From Sulfuriflexus mobilis (lineage in GTDB: Bacteria > Pseudomonadota > Gammaproteobacteria > AKS1), in assembly GCF_003967195.1 (NCBI RefSeq), contig NZ_AP018725.1, forward strand, positions 620,001 to 684,000: a DNA stretch of 64,000 nucleotides. Reading direction: 5' to 3'. Under the pieces are notes generated by a model that had not been told where the DNA came from, made no database searches, and saw only the letters and a list, made by a program, of their open reading frames with translations. The position numbers and the translations under genes are program-made. Every line of letters starts with the position of its first letter. Position 1 is the first letter of the stretch. Below are positions 37,771-61,548 of the stretch, one piece after another.

Positions 37771-38856
37771 ATGGCTGATAACCCCTACATTAAAAAACTC
37801 ATTCGTGACGAAGTACGCGCCCTCTCGGCGTATCACGTGCCGGACGCAAGCGGTTACATTAAACTCGATGCCATGGAAAATCCCTACCAGCTTCCCGCCG
37901 AACTCGTCGATGAATGGCTTGACGTGCTGCGTGAGGTCGAGCTGAATCGCTACCCGGACCCGGGGGCACGGCCTCTCAAGGCCCAACTGCGCAAGGCCAT
38001 GCAGATCCCGGCCGATATGGAGCTGCTGCTCGGTAACGGTTCGGACGAGATCATCCAGATGATCTGCATGGCGCTGGCCAAACCCGGTGCCACGGTGCTG
38101 GCCCCCGAGCCAGGTTTTGTCATGTACCGCATGATCGCGTTGTTCTGCAACATGGACTACATCGGTGTGCCATTACATACGGATTTCAGTCTTGATATGG
38201 ACGCCATGCGTGCCGCGATAGAAGAGCATCGTCCGGCCGTGACCTTCCTCGCCTGGCCGAACAACCCGACCGGTAATTTATTCTCCGAGACCGATGTGAT
38301 GGAGATCATCGAACACGCCCCCGGTCTGGTCGTGCTCGACGAAGCCTACACAAGTTTTGCCGGGCAGAGTTTTATGGCGCGGCTGGGCGACTACGACAAC
38401 CTCGTTGTTATGCGCACGGTCTCCAAGTCGGGCCTCGCCGGCCTGCGCCTGGGTTACCTCGCCGGTCCGGCGGCGTGGCTGAATGAATTCGACAAGGTAC
38501 GCCTGCCCTACAATATCAATATTCTTACCCAGGCCAGTGCCGAGTTTGTTCTAAGTCATACCGATGTGCTCGATGCCCAGGCCGCCAAGCTGCGCGCCGC
38601 ACGTGGTGAGTTGTTTACGGCTATGCAGGCCATCGACGGTATCGAGCCTTACCCGAGCGCCGCCAACTTCATCCTCTTCCGCACCCCGGCGGGGCAGGCC
38701 ACGGCCATCTTCGAATCACTGAAGGCACAAAACGTGCTGGTCAAGAACATGCAGCCGGTCGGCGGCATGCTGGCAGACTGCTTGCGCGTCACCGTCAGCA
38801 CTCCGCAGGAAAACACCGCCTTCCTCACCGCCCTCAGGGACAGCCTGGCCGGTTAG
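37771..38856 (+). CDS. hisC: histidinol-phosphate aminotransferase
   Basis: A 361-residue PLP enzyme. The PLP lysine lies in RTVSKSGLAGLRLGY, with LLGNGSDEIIQMI, AWPNNPTGNLF and VLDEAYTSF as the other family motifs. It transaminates imidazole-acetol phosphate. It is the last core gene before the cassette array, in the same orientation as all cassettes. Confidence 0.95.
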   Translation: MADNPYIKKLIRDEVRALSAYHVPDASGYIKLDAMENPYQLPAELVDEWLDVLREVELNRYPDPGARPLKAQLRKAMQIPADMELLLGNGSDEIIQMICMALAKPGATVLAPEPGFVMYRMIALFCNMDYIGVPLHTDFSLDMDAMRAAIEEHRPAVTFLAWPNNPTGNLFSETDVMEIIEHAPGLVVLDEAYTSFAGQSFMARLGDYDNLVVMRTVSKSGLAGLRLGYLAGPAAWLNEFDKVRLPYNINILTQASAEFVLSHTDVLDAQAAKLRAARGELFTAMQAIDGIEPYPSAANFILFRTPAGQATAIFESLKAQNVLVKNMQPVGGMLADCLRVTVSTPQENTAFLTALRDSLAG

Positions 38857-39000
38857 TTTGACCGCTATGGCCCGGCCAGGGATGGAAGGCCAATAGCCAG
38901 CCCCCTGCCCGTTGTGCTATACATAACCACATAATAATACCCGGCTAGTCAGAAATACGGGCAGTCACGACCCTGACCACCTTGCTTTTTGGCTCAAGAT

Positions 39001-39105
39001 TTTTAGTACTAAAAGGCCCGATAAAAAACATTAAGTCATTGATTATAGTAAAGTCTGTTTTTATCAGGGCCTAAAAGGCCTATTTGAAAGGGGCGTTTTA
39101 GGCCC
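39001..39105. other. overlapping inverted repeats at the proximal edge of the cassette array
   Basis: The 260-bp gap after hisC holds no gene. It contains a perfect palindrome TTTTAGTACTAAAA (39001-39014); arm A (39011-39029) pairs with arm B (39057-39076) with small bulges; arm B ends in GGGCCTAAAA (39067-39076), which also pairs perfectly with arm C TTTTAGGCCC (39096-39105). A:B and B:C stems are mutually exclusive, like an attenuator, but no T-run follows arm C. It may also be the remains of an integron attachment region. Confidence 0.5.
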
Positions 39106-39106
39106 T

Positions 39107-39372
39107 CTAATTATAGTTGGATAGACGTAAGAAAAATCGTATAGAAATATAAGTGAAACACCGATACAAGGGACGTTGAAAAAATGATAAAAAGTGAAGT
39201 GTACGACGCTGCAACACAAACTTGTTTGGTGTTGACACTGGCGAACACTTCACAAGAAGGATTCAACTAAGCCTATGTCGTGCTTCATTCCATTCCTATC
39301 GCTTAATAGCTACGCAATCCAACTACTCGCTAGACGCGACGCACTATCGTGCGCACGTCAGCTTAATTGTTA
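39107..39372 (+). repeat. 266-bp repeat, copy 1 (small cassette)
   Basis: Identical to 41289-41554 except at one base (A at 39125, G at 41307). Probable cassette limits are GTTGGAT (39116-39122) and the G of GTTATAA (39369). It carries a 28-codon frame and a 115-bp attC. The ten bases before GTTGGAT are also shared. Confidence 0.9.
39184..39270 (+). CDS. 28-residue peptide of the duplicated cassette (copy 1)
   Basis: A short frame (MIKSEVYDAATQTCLVLTL then ANTSQEGFN) with an AAGGGA site about ten bases upstream. Its TAA overlaps the attC start, as with many true cassette genes. It has no recognised family. It may be a real peptide, or the cassette may be essentially non-coding. Confidence 0.35.
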   Translation: MIKSEVYDAATQTCLVLTLANTSQEGFN

Positions 39373-39375
39373 TAA
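39261..39375 (+). other. attC site of duplicated cassette, copy 1
   Basis: R'' ATTCAAC (39261-39267) and R' GTTATAA (39369-39375) bound 115 bp. Inner segments pair imperfectly: CAACTAAGC with GCTTAATTG, and GTCGTGC with GCGCACG. The junction lies 9 bases before the next start codon. Confidence 0.75.
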
Positions 39376-39378
39376 GCC

Positions 39379-39807
39379 ATGACATACACAGTAAGTAAAA
39401 TTGAAGCAGCAGCAGATCAACTTGATTGGGCTATAAAGCTTTTTCTTGATCATAAAGCATATGTGCCGGCAATAACTCTTGCAGGTGCAGCTGAAGAAAT
39501 TGTAGGTGAAGCGGTTTCAAATGATGCAGCATTTCATAAGCTAAAAGAAATTCTTTCTGAAAAAACGGGCATAGAAGGAAAAGTCATTTCTCAAGAATAT
39601 CTTAATAAGACAAAAAACTGGCTAAAACATTGGAAATGTTTAAAAGATGATGAAACCATAGAAATAGAACTTGAAAAAGAAGCCATTCAGTACCTAGTAA
39701 GAGCAATGACAAATTTTGTTACTCATGATAATGCAGTTACTAGTGAAACACCGAGGTTTTATGAATGGCTAGTTGAGAACAAAAAGGAATTAATAAATGG
39801 CTTATAA
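39379..39807 (+). CDS. cassette protein, HEPN-like helical family of unknown function
   Basis: A 142-residue all-helical protein (AADQLDWAIKLFLDHKAYVPAITLAGAAEEIVGEA ... NWLKHWKC ... YLVRAMTNFVTH). The pattern of an N-terminal amphipathic helix, an Ala-rich helix and an N-W-x-K-H segment matches a widespread uncharacterised family of small helical proteins that resemble HEPN domains. The ATG lies 9 bases from the cassette junction with no Shine-Dalgarno of its own, and the stop codon is part of the attC. The codons are AT-rich, unlike the core genes. Confidence 0.75.
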   Translation: MTYTVSKIEAAADQLDWAIKLFLDHKAYVPAITLAGAAEEIVGEAVSNDAAFHKLKEILSEKTGIEGKVISQEYLNKTKNWLKHWKCLKDDETIEIELEKEAIQYLVRAMTNFVTHDNAVTSETPRFYEWLVENKKELINGL

Positions 39808-39879
39808 CAAGGCACTCCAGTTGACCACCAAAAGCGGCGCTTTGCTTGCTTTTGGGTCAACTGAGCTTAATCGTTAGCC
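39802..39879 (+). other. attC site
   Basis: Begins TTATAAC (39802-39808) and ends GTTAGCC (39873-39879), 78 bp. AGTTGACC pairs with GGGTCAACT inside. The left end GGCTTATAAC complements the start of its own cassette (39369-39378). Confidence 0.9.
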
Positions 39880-39899
39880 ATAATAATTAAGGAGAGAAC

Positions 39900-40793
39900 G
39901 TGGCAATTGAATCACCACTATTTCAAAGCGCAATGGAGTTGCTTGGGCACTCTTTTTCGCACTTCAATGGTTCGAAAGAGCTAGATAGGAAGCTGGTAAT
40001 ACTACATCTCGCTAATTCGATAGAACTCATTCTTAAGGACTTGGTATTAGATGCGGGGGAGTCTATTTACAAAGGGCCAAAAGAAACGATAACCATTCAT
40101 GGCTGCATTAAGTCATTGGAAGATAAAGATATAAAAATACCTTTCTTGAATAAAATAGAATTATTAATTGATGAAAGAAATGCCCTGCAACATAGGTTTG
40201 GCTCACCGAATGAATTAACTGCAATATTCTATATGAATATATCGCAAGAATTTTTTAGGGAAATCCTCAAAGAGCACTATGACCTAGAATATGAAGAAGT
40301 TATTACTCAATTTGCTGAAGAAAAAGAATTATTAGCATTTCGCATGAGAGAACCCAGCGATGATGCAGAGTTAGAGAATCTTAAAAAGCTATCAAAAGTA
40401 CACCCTTTAGGAGCATTGCTTTCAGCAATGACCTACTTAGAAAAGAACATACTCGACTTTTCAGAGAAAGCCGGGCTAGGTGAGGATTTCAGAAGAAGGC
40501 CATACTGGCATATGATTTCTCATCGTTTTCTAGAGAGATTCGATGTTATAACCCCAGATGAACTTAGGGAAAAAATGGATGATACTAGGCGCTTGCGCAA
40601 TATGGCAGCCCACGGAAGAAAAGAGCCAACTAGAGATGAAGTTGCAAGGGCAATAAGCTCCATTGAAGAATTTGAGAAATTTCTTAGCACTATAGATATG
40701 AGTGCAGTAGAGAAAAAAGTAAAAGCTTACTTAGAAGAACGTGAAGAAGAACGCAACCAGAGAACACTCGAACTAGAGAAAGAAATTGGCTAA
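39900..40793 (+). CDS. cassette protein with two HEPN-type Rx4H motifs
   Basis: A 297-residue mainly helical protein. Two segments carry the R-x4-H signature of HEPN ribonucleases: RNALQH (Arg93-His98) in the first half and RNMAAH (Arg233-His238) in the second, each after a long helix, suggesting tandem HEPN-like domains. The C-terminus is a charged coiled coil. Such proteins are common in toxins and abortive-infection systems, but no activity is shown here. It starts with GTG after an ideal AAGGAGAG site, and its stop lies in the attC. Confidence 0.8.
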   Translation: MAIESPLFQSAMELLGHSFSHFNGSKELDRKLVILHLANSIELILKDLVLDAGESIYKGPKETITIHGCIKSLEDKDIKIPFLNKIELLIDERNALQHRFGSPNELTAIFYMNISQEFFREILKEHYDLEYEEVITQFAEEKELLAFRMREPSDDAELENLKKLSKVHPLGALLSAMTYLEKNILDFSEKAGLGEDFRRRPYWHMISHRFLERFDVITPDELREKMDDTRRLRNMAAHGRKEPTRDEVARAISSIEEFEKFLSTIDMSAVEKKVKAYLEEREEERNQRTLELEKEIG

Positions 40794-40874
40794 CAATAGG
40801 GTCAAGTTGACTGCCAAAAGCGGCGCTCCTTTCGTCGCTATGCTTTTGTCAGCAACTTACCCAAAACGTTAGGT
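40788..40874 (+). other. attC site
   Basis: Begins GGCTAAC (40788-40794) and ends GTTAGGT (40868-40874), 87 bp. AAGTTG pairs with CAACTT, and GGGT with ACCC. GGCTAAC is the exact complement of its cassette start GTTAGCC at 39873. Confidence 0.92.
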
Positions 40875-40895
40875 GTCAGAATAAAAGGAGCACCA

Positions 40896-41282
40896 ATGGA
40901 CGAAGAAATAATTATTGGTTTTTCTGTGTCGCTAATAGGTGGCGGTATAGGTGCATGGTTGTTTCTGAAATTACTGCGCAAATGGATGCGCTTAACAAAA
41001 GAAGCTGAAGAAAATAGTGGTTCACGCGCAGTTCCATCATGGATTACTGGTGTAATTGAACGTTTTTTCTTTACCTTATTAGTGCACTTTCAGTTGCCTG
41101 GTGTGCCAGCTGCTATGCTGATTTGGCTCACTCTAAAAATGGTAACAAATTGGAATAGCCCTTTAAGAAAAGAAGCTGATAAAAATCACACACGGCTAGC
41201 TTTCTCGGCACTATTAGCTGGACTTATTTCATTAGGGTTTGCGGTTTATGGTGGTCTAATCTCACGTGGAGATATTCTCTAA
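40896..41282 (+). CDS. cassette-encoded small membrane protein
   Basis: A 128-residue protein with predicted membrane helices at about 6-25, 53-72 and 101-122 and charged loops between. No family is recognised. A strong AAAGGAG site precedes the ATG. Its own attC is reduced to a few bases because the second copy of the small cassette follows at once. Confidence 0.8.
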   Translation: MDEEIIIGFSVSLIGGGIGAWLFLKLLRKWMRLTKEAEENSGSRAVPSWITGVIERFFFTLLVHFQLPGVPAAMLIWLTLKMVTNWNSPLRKEADKNHTRLAFSALLAGLISLGFAVYGGLISRGDIL

Positions 41283-41283
41283 T

Positions 41284-41298
41284 GACACCTAATTATAG
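41284..41298 (+). other. truncated attC of the membrane-protein cassette
   Basis: GACACCTAAT (41284-41293) is nine-tenths complementary to the start of this cassette (GTTAGGTGTC at 40868-40877), so it is the left arm of its attC. GTTGGAT of the next unit begins only five bases later, so the rest of the site is missing. Confidence 0.65.
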
Positions 41299-41554
41299 TT
41301 GGATAGGCGTAAGAAAAATCGTATAGAAATATAAGTGAAACACCGATACAAGGGACGTTGAAAAAATGATAAAAAGTGAAGTGTACGACGCTGCAACACA
41401 AACTTGTTTGGTGTTGACACTGGCGAACACTTCACAAGAAGGATTCAACTAAGCCTATGTCGTGCTTCATTCCATTCCTATCGCTTAATAGCTACGCAAT
41501 CCAACTACTCGCTAGACGCGACGCACTATCGTGCGCACGTCAGCTTAATTGTTA
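41289..41554 (+). repeat. 266-bp repeat, copy 2 (small cassette)
   Basis: Second copy of 39107-39372, with 265 of 266 bases identical and the same orientation, 2182 bp downstream. Probable cassette limits are 41298 (GTTGGAT) and 41551 (G of GTTAGCC). Confidence 0.9.
41366..41452 (+). CDS. 28-residue peptide of the duplicated cassette (copy 2)
   Basis: Identical in sequence to the frame at 39184-39270, with the same upstream AAGGGA and the same overlap of stop codon and attC. Its reality as a protein is uncertain. Confidence 0.35.
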   Translation: MIKSEVYDAATQTCLVLTLANTSQEGFN

Positions 41555-41557
41555 GCC
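41443..41557 (+). other. attC site of duplicated cassette, copy 2
   Basis: R'' ATTCAAC (41443-41449), R' GTTAGCC (41551-41557), 115 bp, the same site as at 39261-39375 except for the bases after GTTA, which belong to the next cassette. Confidence 0.8.
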
Positions 41558-41576
41558 GGAAAAAGAGGATTTATAG

Positions 41577-41996
41577 ATGATCGAACCAATAAGCTCATTT
41601 CCAGTATTCACCGTTAAGGATCTCAATGCTGCGAAATCATTCTATACAGAGAACCTTGGCTTTGATGTTGTTTTTTCGGGTGATTGGTACACTCACCTGG
41701 TTTCGAAGTCGGGTGTTCAGATTGGTTTTCTATTGCCAGATCAACCCACTCAACCACCAATATTTCAAAAACCATATATTGGTGAAGGCGTCATTTTCAG
41801 CTTGGAAGTAGAAGACGCAGATTCCGCTTTCGAAGTAGCCAAATCGAAATCCCTTGATATCGTTCTTGAGTTACGGTCCGAAGACTGGGGTCAGCGGCAC
41901 TTCTGCATCCAGGATCCAAACGGGATTTATTTGGACATTGTTCAGTCTTTTGAGCCAACCGAAGAATATCAAAATGATTATAGCTCGGAACAATAA
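41577..41996 (+). CDS. VOC-family (glyoxalase/bleomycin-resistance fold) cassette protein
   Basis: A 139-residue single-module pair of beta-alpha-beta-beta-beta motifs: FPVFTVKDLNAAKSFYTENLGFDVVFSGDWY in the first half and WGQRHFCIQDPNGIYLDIVQ in the second, the VOC superfamily pattern. The HFCIQDPNG and terminal Asp/Glu positions could hold a metal. The substrate is unknown; members include drug-binding resistance proteins and isomerases. An AGAGGA site precedes the ATG. Confidence 0.85.
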   Translation: MIEPISSFPVFTVKDLNAAKSFYTENLGFDVVFSGDWYTHLVSKSGVQIGFLLPDQPTQPPIFQKPYIGEGVIFSLEVEDADSAFEVAKSKSLDIVLELRSEDWGQRHFCIQDPNGIYLDIVQSFEPTEEYQNDYSSEQ

Positions 41997-42017
41997 CCTA
42001 AGCTCAAAGCACAGGTC

Positions 42018-42080
42018 GGCTAACAAGGCGGTTAAGAACGACGCGCATAAAGCGCCGCGCGTCTTACCTTAACGTTAGAA
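42018..42080 (+). other. attC site
   Basis: Begins GGCTAAC (42018-42024), ends GTTAGAA (42074-42080), 63 bp. GACGCGC pairs with GCGCGTC, and GGTTAAG with CTTACC-type bases. It starts 21 bases after the VOC gene stop. Confidence 0.92.
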
Positions 42081-42087
42081 GGCAAAA

Positions 42088-42732
42088 ATGCCAAAGCAGA
42101 AATCATCAAAAATATTCCTCAAGAACGGCGATAGCCAAAAGGTTTTCATGTGGACTATCGTAGGATCTGATGGGTCTGTGATGATGGGATTTCCTTGGGA
42201 GACGAATGAAGATCTAGCTTTAGTGATGGATGAAGAGCTAGGGGATTTAAAACGTGAAGATGTAGTATCACAAGGCTATACAGGAAGGTCTAAGATAAGT
42301 TTTCATAAATCAGGTCATTTCAAACTTAATAGCAGAATGGGAAAAACCGAAGAGGCGATAGACAGAATCACCATTAAAGGCCCGAGTTTTGATGAGATTA
42401 CAACACCAGCCAGATTAGCAGAGCTTTTGTTACCCGAGTCGATACCAGACAGCAACTATGAACCGACCGAACGAGATATAGTTATTGATGTAACTAATGC
42501 AGAGAGTTTACCCACACGATGTACTATTTCCTGTATCAGGAATGAAGAGTTTATGGAAATTAACTTTGACAAAAGTAGAGTTGTCGATACTTCTATTTGG
42601 GAAGCTTCTCATGCATTAGAAAATGACACCCACACTTGGATGTGGACATTTAGGAAGTCAAAAGATGACACAAGATATGCAGATAAAATATATGTGACAC
42701 TTCTAGGTAGCCCCAAATGGGGGATTGAATAG
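42088..42732 (+). CDS. cassette protein of unknown function
   Basis: A 214-residue soluble protein with alternating strands, many Asp/Glu and Trp residues (FMWTIVGSDGSVMMGFPWETNED; HTWMWTFRKSKDDTRYADKIYVTLLG). I see no signal peptide, membrane segment or known motif. The ATG lies 13 bases from the cassette junction with no strong ribosome site. It is AT-rich like its neighbours. Confidence 0.75.
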   Translation: MPKQKSSKIFLKNGDSQKVFMWTIVGSDGSVMMGFPWETNEDLALVMDEELGDLKREDVVSQGYTGRSKISFHKSGHFKLNSRMGKTEEAIDRITIKGPSFDEITTPARLAELLLPESIPDSNYEPTERDIVIDVTNAESLPTRCTISCIRNEEFMEINFDKSRVVDTSIWEASHALENDTHTWMWTFRKSKDDTRYADKIYVTLLGSPKWGIE

Positions 42733-42738
42733 TATGCC

Positions 42739-42819
42739 TTCTAACAAATGGGTCAAGTTCGCTCCCGTTGGTCGCTGGGACCGCCAAAAAGCGGCGGCCC
42801 CTTACCCAAAACGTTAGGC
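42739..42819 (+). other. attC site
   Basis: Begins TTCTAAC (42739-42745), ends GTTAGGC (42813-42819), 81 bp. GCCTTCTAAC complements its cassette start GTTAGAAGGC at 42074-42083 over ten bases. GGGTC/GGGAC and CCGCC/GGCGG segments form the inner stem. Confidence 0.92.
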
Positions 42820-43557
42820 ATGAAAATAATCATTATGAAGAAGGATAGGCCGAAAAAATTTAATAGAGATGTAAGCAAACACCCAGCACTAAGGCGTAAG
42901 TGGAGGTTGTGGTTAAAGCATTTGAAATCGAACCTCACAGAGTTATTGGGAGATAGGGAGATATTCTGGGGATTACAAGATATCGCTAAAGAAAACCCAG
43001 ACATATTAACACCAGGGGCGTTATTTGATTGGATGTGTAGTAACTATACAACTTCTGTAGCAGTGGGTGCGCGTAGGTTTACAGATCAAAGCAAGAACTC
43101 ACACTCACTATGGGTGATGTTGTACCAAATACTGGAAAACCCAGGTGTTATAAATAGAAGAGCACATATATCTCTTTATACTAAAGTGACGCGCGAGATG
43201 GATATGGGGAATCTAACATTTAACTCTGTAGTTGGTAAAGGAAAAGACTATTTAAGTCAACAACAGGTACGCTCAGACTTAAGAAAATTAGAAGTTGCTA
43301 ATGAAAGAATAAAAAGATTTGTTAATAAGAGAATTGCACATTTCACTAATAAAGGTTCGATAAGAAAATTACCAACATTTCATGAATTAGATAACGCCTT
43401 AACCACAATTGATGAATTACTATGCAAATATAACTTGCTGCTAAATGCTGAAGGAACAACTTCTATGGAAGCAACAAGACAATATGACTGGACTGAAGTG
43501 CTTAATAAGGCTTGGATTAAGACGCAAGATGGGTTGCGCCATAACAAACATGCCTAA
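42820..43557 (+). CDS. cassette protein with AbiU2-like HEPN segment
   Basis: A 245-residue helical protein. The segment LEVANERIKRFVNKRIAHFTNKG (residues 158 on; Arg171 and His174) followed by a helix with TIDELLCKYNLLL resembles the AEPN/HEPN domain of AbiU2-type abortive-infection proteins and fixes the likely family. Residues RKWRLWLKHL near the start are basic. The ATG at 42820 directly follows the core site with no Shine-Dalgarno; an ATG at 42835 is an alternative. The stop lies in the attC. Confidence 0.7.
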   Translation: MKIIIMKKDRPKKFNRDVSKHPALRRKWRLWLKHLKSNLTELLGDREIFWGLQDIAKENPDILTPGALFDWMCSNYTTSVAVGARRFTDQSKNSHSLWVMLYQILENPGVINRRAHISLYTKVTREMDMGNLTFNSVVGKGKDYLSQQQVRSDLRKLEVANERIKRFVNKRIAHFTNKGSIRKLPTFHELDNALTTIDELLCKYNLLLNAEGTTSMEATRQYDWTEVLNKAWIKTQDGLRHNKHA

Positions 43558-43659
43558 CAAGCGCAGTCAAATCGGTCACACTTCCGCGTCGCGCCTTTTT
43601 TGCTTAAATAGCACAAAAGGCACTACACTCCAGTGTGCCACATATTGCGGACGTTAGTT
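43552..43659 (+). other. attC site
   Basis: Begins GCCTAAC (43552-43558), ends GTTAGTT (43653-43659), 108 bp. ATGCCTAAC exactly complements its cassette start GTTAGGCAT at 42813. Confidence 0.88.
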
Positions 43660-43672
43660 GCAAAAGGAAGAG

Positions 43673-44089
43673 ATGGGCATCGAGTATAAAATCAACGCTC
43701 CTATATCAACGGATCAATTCATAGAATTGCTTCGTGACTCTACACTTGGTGAGCGCAGGCCGATTGAGGACCGAAATTGCATGGAAGGAATGGTAAAGAA
43801 TAGCAATCTGATGGTTACAGCCTGGAATGATGGCTCATTAGTTGGTATTGCACGTTCTATGACAGACTTTCATTATGCCTGTTACCTTTCCGACCTTGCG
43901 GTTCATAAGAAATATCAAAAGAACGGTATTGGAAAGAAACTGCAAGCCTTAACACAAGAGCAATTGGGGCCTAAATGCAAATTAATTCTGGTTGCTGCGC
44001 CCGCTGTAAACTCGTACTACGAGCATATAGGGTTTACAAACAATCAAAGGTGTTGGGTGCTTGATCGTGAGCAAAGTATCAGCAGTTAA
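43673..44089 (+). CDS. GNAT-family N-acetyltransferase (cassette)
   Basis: A 138-residue acetyltransferase. LSDLAVHKKYQKNGIGKKLQ (residues 72-91) is GNAT motif A with the Q-x-x-G-I-G acetyl-CoA loop, and a following strand ILVAAPAVNSYYEHIGF gives motif B. The substrate is unknown; integron GNATs range from drug to amine acetylases. The start at 43673 follows an AAAGGAAGAG site. Confidence 0.88.
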   Translation: MGIEYKINAPISTDQFIELLRDSTLGERRPIEDRNCMEGMVKNSNLMVTAWNDGSLVGIARSMTDFHYACYLSDLAVHKKYQKNGIGKKLQALTQEQLGPKCKLILVAAPAVNSYYEHIGFTNNQRCWVLDREQSISS

Positions 44090-44143
44090 CAAGGCGCCCC
44101 AGCCGACGTCAGAAAACGGCGCGACTGAGCTTGGCCGCTAGAT
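44084..44143 (+). other. degenerate attC site
   Basis: AGTTAAC (44084-44090) to GCTAGAT (44137-44143), 60 bp. The R' core has C in place of the usual T (GCT rather than GTT), and R'' does not fully complement its cassette start, so recombination at this site may be impaired. Confidence 0.7.
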
Positions 44144-44150
44144 TTCAATT

Positions 44151-44777
44151 ATGCCCAGTCAGGAAATTAACGAATACTATGATGCGACGGAATCTCGAGA
44201 GATTCGTTCTGATTTGACTTTTGCGGTTAATATTGTGGGCGATCCTAAGATCGCTATAGATTGTGGTTGCGGAGCTGGCGCTGACATAGAGTACTTATTG
44301 GCATCGGGTTTTAAAGTGTACGGCTTTGATATAGAGGAAGAATCTATATCAAGATGTAAGAAACGCTTTAAGAATAACAGTGATGTCATTCTCTCAAAAG
44401 CCGGGTTTAGTTCGTATAACTATCCGCGGGCATCACTGGTAGTCGCCGACGCAAGTCTCTTCTTTTGCCCAAAGACGGAGTTTGACACTGTTTGGCGCAA
44501 TATATCTGAGTGCCTTTACCCCAATGGGATTTTCTGTGGTTCCTTTTTAGGAGCTGAAGATACTATGGCTGGGCCAATATATGATAAGAGTGCTTATTGG
44601 CCTGAAATATCAGTTTTTGATGAGAAAGAAGTGAGAGCTATTTTTAAAGGCTATGAAATTTGTCATTTTACTGAGCATAAAACATCTGGAAAGACCCCAC
44701 AGGGAATTCCGCATGACTGGCATATCTATTCGGTCGTTGCAAAGAAATCTGACAATTCAAGCAAGAAGGGTGCGTAA
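44151..44777 (+). CDS. class I SAM methyltransferase (cassette)
   Basis: A 208-residue methyltransferase. Motif I AIDCGCGAGADIEYLL (residues 35-50) binds SAM, followed by FDIEEESI (motif II acid) and SLVVADASLFFCP (motif IV). The substrate is unknown, possibly a small molecule as in tellurite-resistance TehB-like proteins. No clear ribosome site precedes the ATG. AT-rich codons match the rest of the array. Confidence 0.8.
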   Translation: MPSQEINEYYDATESREIRSDLTFAVNIVGDPKIAIDCGCGAGADIEYLLASGFKVYGFDIEEESISRCKKRFKNNSDVILSKAGFSSYNYPRASLVVADASLFFCPKTEFDTVWRNISECLYPNGIFCGSFLGAEDTMAGPIYDKSAYWPEISVFDEKEVRAIFKGYEICHFTEHKTSGKTPQGIPHDWHIYSVVAKKSDNSSKKGA

Positions 44778-44828
44778 AAGTGTCCACAAAAATGGTTCTA
44801 GTTCACCCTCTTTTTCAAATCGTTAGGC
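44778..44828 (+). other. remnant attC (right half only)
   Basis: GTTAGGC (44822-44828) is a normal R' core, but no matching RYYYAAC is seen in the 44 bases after the methyltransferase stop. The left part of the site is lost or diverged. Confidence 0.55.
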
Positions 44829-44847
44829 CAGGCAACGCAAAGCATAT

Positions 44848-45744
44848 ATGACGATCTATACTCTCGGCACACTGATAATCTTGCTCCCCTTATTGATTAT
44901 CGCGTGGTTTTCATTCGGCAAGCTAAAAAGCAAAACTGAATGGTTGCTGAGACTCTTATTTGTGGGGAGCATGGTTCTGGTTTTTTACAAAATCGGCACT
45001 TGGTCAATGACCAGCTATTACATGAGGTTCGTGATCGTCGTGCTTTTCCTGGGTTCGGCATTCTACTCATTTTACAATATCCGTACCGGGTTCTGGCATA
45101 TACCGAAGAAGCAATGGTTTCGTATGGGGGGAACAGCTTTATTCACTCTGCTCGGTATCTTGCTAAGCGCGTTAACGTACTCCGGGACCTCTTATTCAGG
45201 CAGTGACATGATTAACCTGAAATTCCCATTCGGTCAGGGCAGATATTATGTACTACAAGGTGGAAGTAATGTCATGACAAATCCATTTCACAGCATGGCC
45301 TTGAATGGAAAGTATGCTATAGACCTTGTTGAAATAAACAATCTAGGCAACCGGGCCGCGACAATTTTACCGCAAGAACTCGCGCAGTATCATATCTTTG
45401 GCGAGGTGGTTTACAGCCCATGTAACGGCAGGGTTGTAACAACGGTTAATGGTTTTCCGGATAACATACCCACAAACGTGGATCGAGAGCATCCTGCAGG
45501 TAACCACGTGGTTATAGAATGCGACAGTATTAAAGTCATGCTCGCACATTTGAAGGCAGGCAGCCTAAAAGTCAGTCAGGGGGATAATGTTAAAGCGGGT
45601 TGGCCCGTTGCCGAGGTGGGTAATTCTGGTTACACGGATGAACCGCACCTTCACATACAAGCTAACAGCCATGATGGCAATCCTGTTGCAATCTTGTTCG
45701 GTGAAAGATTTCTTTCAATTAATGATGTATATGTCGTTAACTAA
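44848..45744 (+). CDS. membrane-anchored M23-family peptidase-like protein (cassette)
   Basis: A 298-residue protein: four membrane helices (about 2-23, 32-52, 58-78, 93-113), then an M23/LytM-like domain (about 130-295). NPFHSMALNGKYAIDLVEI supplies the first zinc His/Asp pair and EPHLHIQ the HxH pair; VMLAHLKAGS is the intermediate His. Basic loops after helices 1 and 3 suggest both termini are outside, placing the peptidase in the periplasm, where it could cut peptidoglycan cross-links. It is the last gene of the array. Confidence 0.75.
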   Translation: MTIYTLGTLIILLPLLIIAWFSFGKLKSKTEWLLRLLFVGSMVLVFYKIGTWSMTSYYMRFVIVVLFLGSAFYSFYNIRTGFWHIPKKQWFRMGGTALFTLLGILLSALTYSGTSYSGSDMINLKFPFGQGRYYVLQGGSNVMTNPFHSMALNGKYAIDLVEINNLGNRAATILPQELAQYHIFGEVVYSPCNGRVVTTVNGFPDNIPTNVDREHPAGNHVVIECDSIKVMLAHLKAGSLKVSQGDNVKAGWPVAEVGNSGYTDEPHLHIQANSHDGNPVAILFGERFLSINDVYVVN

Positions 45745-45750
45745 CTCCTG

Positions 45751-45798
45751 GCCTTACAAGGAAAATTAGTGGCATTAGCAAGGACTCGCATCCTTGCT
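45751..45798 (+). other. degenerate distal attC end and hairpin
   Basis: GCCTTAC (45751-45757) matches R'' except for one base and, with TG before it, nearly complements its cassette start GTTAGGCCA. No GTTRRRY follows. A perfect 8-bp hairpin AGCAAGGA-CTCGCA-TCCTTGCT (45777-45798) lies just after and may end transcription of the array. The next 200 bases to 46004 show nothing coding. Confidence 0.5.
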
Positions 45799-61195: not shown

Positions 61196-61548
61196 TGCGG
61201 GAGTCGGCCAGGCGATCGCTGTTCCGCAAGGGATGGAGGAAAGTCCGGGCTCCATAGGGCAGAGTGCCAGGTAACCCCTGGGGGGCGCGAGCCTACGGAA
61301 AGTGCCGCAGAAAATATACCGCCTAAGCGACCTCGGTCGCCGGTAAGGGTGAAATGGTGCGGTAAGAGCGCACCGCGCCGCTGGTAACAGTGGTGGCAGG
61401 GTAAACCCCACTCGGAGCAAGACCAAATAGGGGAACATCGATGCGGCCCGCATTGTTCCCGGGTAGGTTGCTTGAGGCACGCGGTGACGCGTGACCCAGA
61501 TGAATGATCGTCCTCGACAGAACCCGGCTTATCGGCCGACTCCCACCT
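61196..61548 (+). ncRNA. rnpB: RNase P RNA (class A)
   Basis: The 5' end (GGGAGTCGGCC) pairs with the 3' end (GGCCGACTCCC), forming helix P1. Conserved blocks GAGGAAAGTCCGGGCTCC and AGGGTGAAATGGTGCGGTA, CAAATAGGGG and ACAGAACCCGGCTTATCGG are all present in order, about 350 nt, the normal bacterial length. TATAAT at 61187-61192 fits a -10 box just before the start. It lies between rsmI and mraZ; a T-rich stretch follows. Confidence 0.96.

Follow-up and report, generated by a model that had tools for sequence, protein, structure and literature searches.

Where is the integrase of a cassette array that has none beside it? The genome of Sulfuriflexus mobilis, a complete single contig of 3.11 Mb (NZ_AP018725.1), raises this question at positions 620001-684000 (64 kb in all, hereafter the window), where a reading of the sequence alone had proposed an integron array at 39116-45757, with co-directional genes each followed by an attC-like site and no integrase in view. 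We confirmed a real integron gene-cassette array at 39,117-45,760 of the window, with 11 cassettes, all in the same direction, and located eight attC sites in it by reading and folding. As an alignment of the attC sites yielded no consensus structure in RNAalifold, a position-weight model was chosen over a covariance model, and the 11 attC sites used to train it came exclusively from the genome's other two arrays. Six of the eight sites scored 26.4-30.5, above all of 20 shuffles of the window (best score 22.8). The remaining two were w9 (44,084), which scored 18.2, below the shuffle maximum, and w8 (43,552), which was missed by the model but has a reciprocity of 9 bases and, on the bottom strand, a fold z of -5.2. 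The sequence-only reading was right about the coordinates, and its attC sites stand on both scores and bottom-strand folds. Its claim that cassette starts complement their own attC sites over 7-10 bases holds for five cassettes: exact reciprocity extends over 11, 7, 7, 10 and 9 bases in cassettes 2, 3, 6, 7 and 8, respectively, over 6-7 bases in the two copies that form cassettes 1 and 5 (read from the sequence, with the core set correctly) and over 3 bases in cassette 9, while the attC sites of cassettes 4, 10 and 11 are damaged.

A whole-genome search with PF00589 found four tyrosine recombinase genes, at 53, 237, 2014 and 2300 kb, and none in the window (620-684 kb), in line with the earlier claim. 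With at least two attC sites and no intI nearby, the array is formally a cluster of attC sites lacking an integrase (CALIN) and not a complete integron, in which intI lies beside attI. As a CALIN with an attI it is of a known kind and in itself ordinary. Between the end of a hisC-like gene (38,856) and cassette 1, we found a stretch with 75% identity over 119 bp to the leader and attI of an integron integrase gene at 2300 kb (intI-B, below), and a three-way alignment showed that it has a similar inverted repeat immediately ahead of the crossover. The leader homology ends near the expected intI start codon, and no IntI similarity is left at this remnant. Because the attI/intI-leader remnant joins the first cassette, the sequence supports the view that this is an integron that lost its intI rather than a random cluster of attC sites. 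A noncoding cassette of 266 bp, present twice in the window (99.6% identity) and once as the first cassette of another array at 237 kb (98%), indicates that cassettes were probably exchanged between integrons in the past. It is possible, if doubtful, that the window array never had an intI and became a CALIN by relocation, as a segment of attI plus cassettes copied or transposed next to hisC. The likeness of the window attI to that of intI-B (75%) and the cassette common to the window and the array at 237 kb would fit such a history, but the conservation of the leader ends near the expected start codon, as if intI had been cut out, and the left edge of the array showed neither a transposase gene nor a repeat.

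Two interrupted integrase genes outside the window

Two genes passed the cut-off (265 bits) of the IntI profile TIGR02249 in the whole genome, with 457 and 421 bits. They are intI-A (236.9 kb) and intI-B (2300 kb), both of them at the head of a cassette array of their own; intI-B adjoins ilvD, as in two congeners. Both profile matches end at position 297 of 315 because a 50-nt insert, GTCGCTCCCGGCGTCCTGCCT[TC/CA]CGCGACACTAGTACATCCTGTACGTCG, sits immediately 5' of TAT ACC CAT GT, which encodes the catalytic Tyr box, and puts the Tyr out of frame. Both genes read cleanly but for this insert. The truncated products would be predicted to keep the DNA-binding and most of the catalytic residues and to lose the nucleophile and the C-terminal tail, and we infer that the insertions abolish integrase activity. 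The sequence-only reading had offered either an array fed by an integrase elsewhere or a segment that lost its integrase. The attI/leader remnant argues for loss, and feeding can be spoken of in the past tense alone, because both other intI genes are interrupted by a frame-shifting element.

Among about 155 gammaproteobacterial intI genes, an unbiased list, the 50-nt element was present in the two genes of this genome alone, and nearly all the others read through the Tyr position. The one other gene that stops there, from genome G328, ends at profile position 296 and was rejected as a further case since it carries no element. The intI genes of congeners (found in two of three) are intact, and their proteins were placed among or beside intI-A and intI-B in a tree. 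A group II intron was rejected as the source of the insert, which is 50 nt long; an Rfam scan of the window, as distinct from the intI loci, called no intron. An assembly artefact was rejected as well, as six genes in five genomes have the element (see below).

The two inserts are 96% identical, whereas the flanks agree at about 70% on the left and at 50-60% beyond the first 12 bases on the right, and the two proteins are clearly diverged in alignment. We regard it as rather unlikely that both inserts go back to a single insertion, which gene conversion then carried from one gene to the other. The near identity of the copies, with no closer copy in the genome, would agree with conversion, but the flanking identity falls at once on either side and the same site has been struck in unrelated species.

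The window array resembles CALINs, or integrase-less chromosomal integrons, in having attC sites without a nearby intI and integrons elsewhere in the genome, but differs in that it retains an attI and intI leader and in that all other intI of the genome are interrupted. In Xanthomonas, CALINs occur in about half of the genomes and intI lies downstream of ilvD (PMC12444791), similar to the position of intI-B beside ilvD.

A palindromic element and its site in intI

We scanned about 85,000 species genomes for the element end followed by Tyr-Thr-His codons and obtained four more interrupted intI genes, from Porticoccus (L078), another member of the Porticoccaceae (L083), the gammaproteobacterial lineage BRH_c0 (L084) and another gammaproteobacterium (L079). 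In all six interrupted genes the insert, 49-50 nt long, occupies one and the same base on the sense strand, with its orientation unchanged; L078 has an additional stop. A set of 89 sources (425 kb), most of them intI loci, had the element at this base alone. The family of L083 is represented by 112 genomes, 23 of which have intI. In the Porticoccaceae tree, the three interrupted genes are each sister to intact genes (L084 with L189, support 95/89; L078 with L185, 95/84) and three changes are forced on the starred branches, which argues that the insertions recurred independently. A single ancestral insertion in the Porticoccaceae was favoured while the interrupted genes formed a clade and was rejected after intact relatives had been added. 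A search of the open literature retrieved no report of a recurrent, nucleotide-exact insertion at the intI Tyr codon, which, as far as open papers show, has not been described previously. At L079 (3140-3320, minus strand), a leftover element and another, diverged YTHV tail come after an intact 3' end of intI, an arrangement that has the appearance of a repaired integrase.

Of 369 gammaproteobacterial genomes, 13 contain sequences of 50-52 nt related to the insert at no more than two mismatches. When 19 copies were aligned, they gave two hairpins with 12 pairs, in which 94% of the cells are paired and 20 cells have changed on both sides; none of 500 shuffles reached either value. The stems are 4-5 bp long and the element ends in GTAC(G/A)TC(G/A). 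With a covariance model (E<=0.1), 28 matches were found in this genome compared with 0, 3 and 1 in three congeners. The copies outside intI are mostly intergenic and some lie within genes. Those read in frame occur in leuS and mnmG of this genome and, elsewhere, in genes reading as alaS, glyQ and a helicase, the frame being kept in all seven of the housekeeping-gene copies seen. Such palindromes (L159, L161, L144 and L156; leuS, mnmG, glyQ-like and alaS-like) add about 17 residues to proteins that must function. Neither viral contigs nor plasmids yielded a copy; a phage reservoir was rejected on the first of these grounds, the one phage pattern match being due to chance. One of the Y1_Tnp genes is intact and has no flanking element, and another is a remnant adjoining an element copy; no gene for a REP-associated tyrosine transposase flanked by the element was found.

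Judged by its sequence, the element is a dispersed palindromic repeat family of Gammaproteobacteria akin to repetitive extragenic palindromes (REPs). It shares with the REP superfamily short dispersed palindromes, compensatory stems, a mostly intergenic location and in-frame housekeeping copies, and differs in its 50-52 nt and two unlike hairpins. REPs with GTAG or CGTC tags have copies within tRNA synthetase and repair genes, and in two recB genes they sit at roughly one position; the CGTC type is described as an 8-9-bp stem with a 4-5-nt loop and a CCA tail (PMC3733652), which the 50-nt element does not match. Rickettsia palindromic elements are likewise read in frame within essential proteins, as in leuS and mnmG here, but they have another sequence and other hosts, and the intI copies are out of frame.

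We consider it probable that intI was deleted from the window integron and that the two other intI genes were split by this REP-like element at the Tyr codon, a recurrently targeted site. In all likelihood none of the three integrons has a working integrase: one lost its gene by deletion, and in the other two a palindromic element with a preferred site inactivated it. The recurrence itself, we infer, reflects the target preference of a transposing enzyme, possibly aided by selection against the integrase. Several points weigh against this interpretation. The flanks of the other element copies gave no target consensus, which leaves the exact site unexplained. The scan of about 85,000 genomes was aimed at the Tyr site, so its count is no rate and is silent on insertions elsewhere in intI. 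Except in L078, no further lesion was seen in the interrupted genes, and the tails behind the insert, now out of frame, have stayed intact, so any loss of function must be recent or else incomplete (dN/dS values are coarse, the synonymous sites being saturated). Finally, a segment of attI plus array may have arrived as such, which makes deletion of intI in situ a likely rather than a certain course.

An old insertion that was inherited and then precisely excised many times, acting as a reversible off-switch of integron integrases, appears improbable. Three Porticoccaceae copies belong to one subtype (CTTGTAC..TGTACATCG), and in genomes G369 and G372 the intI copy is the sole copy of the element, as such a switch might lead one to expect. 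However, this history requires more steps on the tree than independent gains, and intI-A and intI-B stand apart with intact genes between them. It is also at odds with the fact that we know of no excision enzyme. Less probable still is a dedicated and possibly reversible off-switch, in which the element would seek out the active-site codon of the integrase and be precisely excised or translationally bypassed on need; if so, a mobile hairpin would control integron activity.

Very improbable, finally, is that the insert is tolerated through ribosome hopping or a frame shift, with active integrases feeding the window array in trans. The insert does recall translational bypass elements (the 50-nt gap of T4 gene 60 and the byps of yeast mitochondria) in its length of 50 nt, its two stable hairpins and its place inside a reading frame, and five of the six interrupted genes have intact frames on either side of it, with mainly synonymous differences in the tails. 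Membership in that group is nevertheless unsupported, because there are no matching take-off and landing codons (ATT, ATG, ATC or ATA before the insert versus TCG at its end), because the seven housekeeping copies preserve a frame that would be irrelevant to a bypassed element, because L078 has decayed to an extra stop, and because the interrupted genes are sister to intact ones, so that conservation of the tails can predate insertion. The intact 3' end that precedes the leftover element at L079 also speaks against bypass, as if function had needed restoring.

Cassettes and mobile elements of the arrays

The features of the array and its left neighbour are collected in Table 1.

Table 1. Cassettes, attI remnant and neighbouring features at the integron array (coordinates in the window; aa, amino acids; ORF, open reading frame; IS, insertion sequence; SAM, S-adenosylmethionine)
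Feature	Position	Strand	Remarks
hisC-like aminotransferase gene	37771..38856	+	left neighbour of the integron; from the ORF list, named by eye from sequence
attI and intI-leader remnant, intI itself absent	38975..39116	+	inverted repeat GGGCCTAAAA..TTTTAGGCCC; crossover G^TT at 39116/39117
Cassette 1, ~253 bp	39117..39369	+	without long ORF; attC 39317-39375, score 26.4
Cassette 2	39370..39873	+	ORF 39379-39807, 142 aa; attC 39802-39879, score 30.3; reciprocity 11 nt
Cassette 3	39874..40868	+	ORF 39900-40793, HEPN/DUF4145-like; attC 40788-40874, score 29.9
Cassette 4	40869..41298	+	ORF 40896-41282, small membrane protein
Cassette 5	41299..41551	+	second copy of cassette 1; attC 41499-41557, score 27.6
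Cassette 6	41552..42074	+	ORF 41577-41996, glyoxalase/bleomycin-resistance fold (Pfam E 6e-14); attC 42018-42080, score 27.1
Cassette 7	42075..42813	+	ORF 42088-42732, function not assigned; attC 42739-42819, score 30.5; reciprocity 10 nt
Cassette 8	42814..43653	+	ORF 42820-43557; attC 43552-43659; reciprocity 9 nt, fold z -5.2
Cassette 9	43654..44137	+	ORF 43673-44089, GNAT acetyltransferase (Pfam E 7e-12); degenerate attC 44084-44143, GCTAGAT core, score 18.2
Cassette 10	44138..44822	+	ORF 44151-44777, SAM methyltransferase (Pfam E 1e-10)
IS3-like element, right end, 37 bp	44770..44806	+	92%; the element's two full copies lie within attC sites of the other arrays
Cassette 11	44823..45760	+	ORF 44848-45744, M23 peptidase (Pfam E 1e-11); right edge of array

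The protein of cassette 2 matched no family and no Pfam entry. Weak HEPN or defence-type matches were obtained for the proteins of cassette 3 (39900-40793; PADLOC PDC-S19) and cassette 8 (42820-43557; AbiU2-HEPN, Pfam E 2.7e-5, below the cut-off). Cassette 1 is 99.6% identical to cassette 5 (266 bp) and 97.8% identical to the first cassette of the 237-kb integron. The three copies of this noncoding cassette (window 39117-39369 and 41299-41551; L005 10940-11195; 98-99.6%) each lie directly behind attI or an attI-like sequence, and the cassette contains a possible 28-aa ORF and a TTGACA box.

The damaged attC sites differ in what is left of them. The first ten bases of that of cassette 4 remain (TGACACCTAA, 41283-41292) and are fused to ten attI-like bases (CTAATTATAG, 41289-41298), the two being joined via CTAA (41283-41298), as might be left by a past fusion of two integron heads and a deletion. 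The attC of cassette 10 has an IS remnant inside it and its 3' part alone survives, while that of cassette 11, read from sequence, has kept its 5' end and lost its 3' half. The remnant belongs to an IS3-like element (orfA HTH_Tnp_1, orfB rve) with just three traces in the 3.11-Mb genome, one per integron array and each within an attC (L005 13170-14478, L006 13035-14343 and window 44770-44806). It gives the impression of an IS that seeks attC sites without belonging to the IS1111-attC group. As with that group and the group IIC-attC introns, a mobile element has settled in attC; the difference lies in its orfA and orfB, with no IS110-type transposase or intron. In the 237-kb array (L005 15362-15423), a different inverted repeat (AAGTGGGGTCAGAGCACAG..) replaces part of an attC. 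The window also carries a bacterial RNase P RNA of class A (61200-61547).

How the arrays may have become frozen

If the integrase genes were lost by deletion and by the REP-like element, as we favour, the following course of events may be proposed. Cassettes would once have moved among the three integrons of the cell. Deletion would have removed intI from the window integron and fused what was left, attI and the intI leader, to the region downstream of hisC, and a short palindromic element with a preferred landing site in intI, moved by some transposing enzyme, would have split the other two genes before the nucleophile and shifted their frame, so that no intact integron integrase gene remains. 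With integrase activity lost, the cassette arrays would be frozen.

Such insertions may be tolerated or even favoured, because inactive integrases are common, with 43-46% of intI predicted to be inactive (PMC3108266), and because an active integrase carries a cost (PMC3510236). The genes described here resemble those inactivated integrases in their loss by frame disruption, which suggests little need for, or selection against, activity. The known cases, however, are scattered frameshifts, stops and deletions, whereas here one mobile element occupies the same base in six genes.

This interpretation would explain how one genome can hold three cassette arrays without an intact integrase gene. Repeated splitting of intI at one base by a mobile palindrome would amount to a specific way in which cassette arrays are frozen. 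Little is understood of how REP-like elements choose their targets, and the Tyr site of intI would provide a natural one that lends itself to testing.

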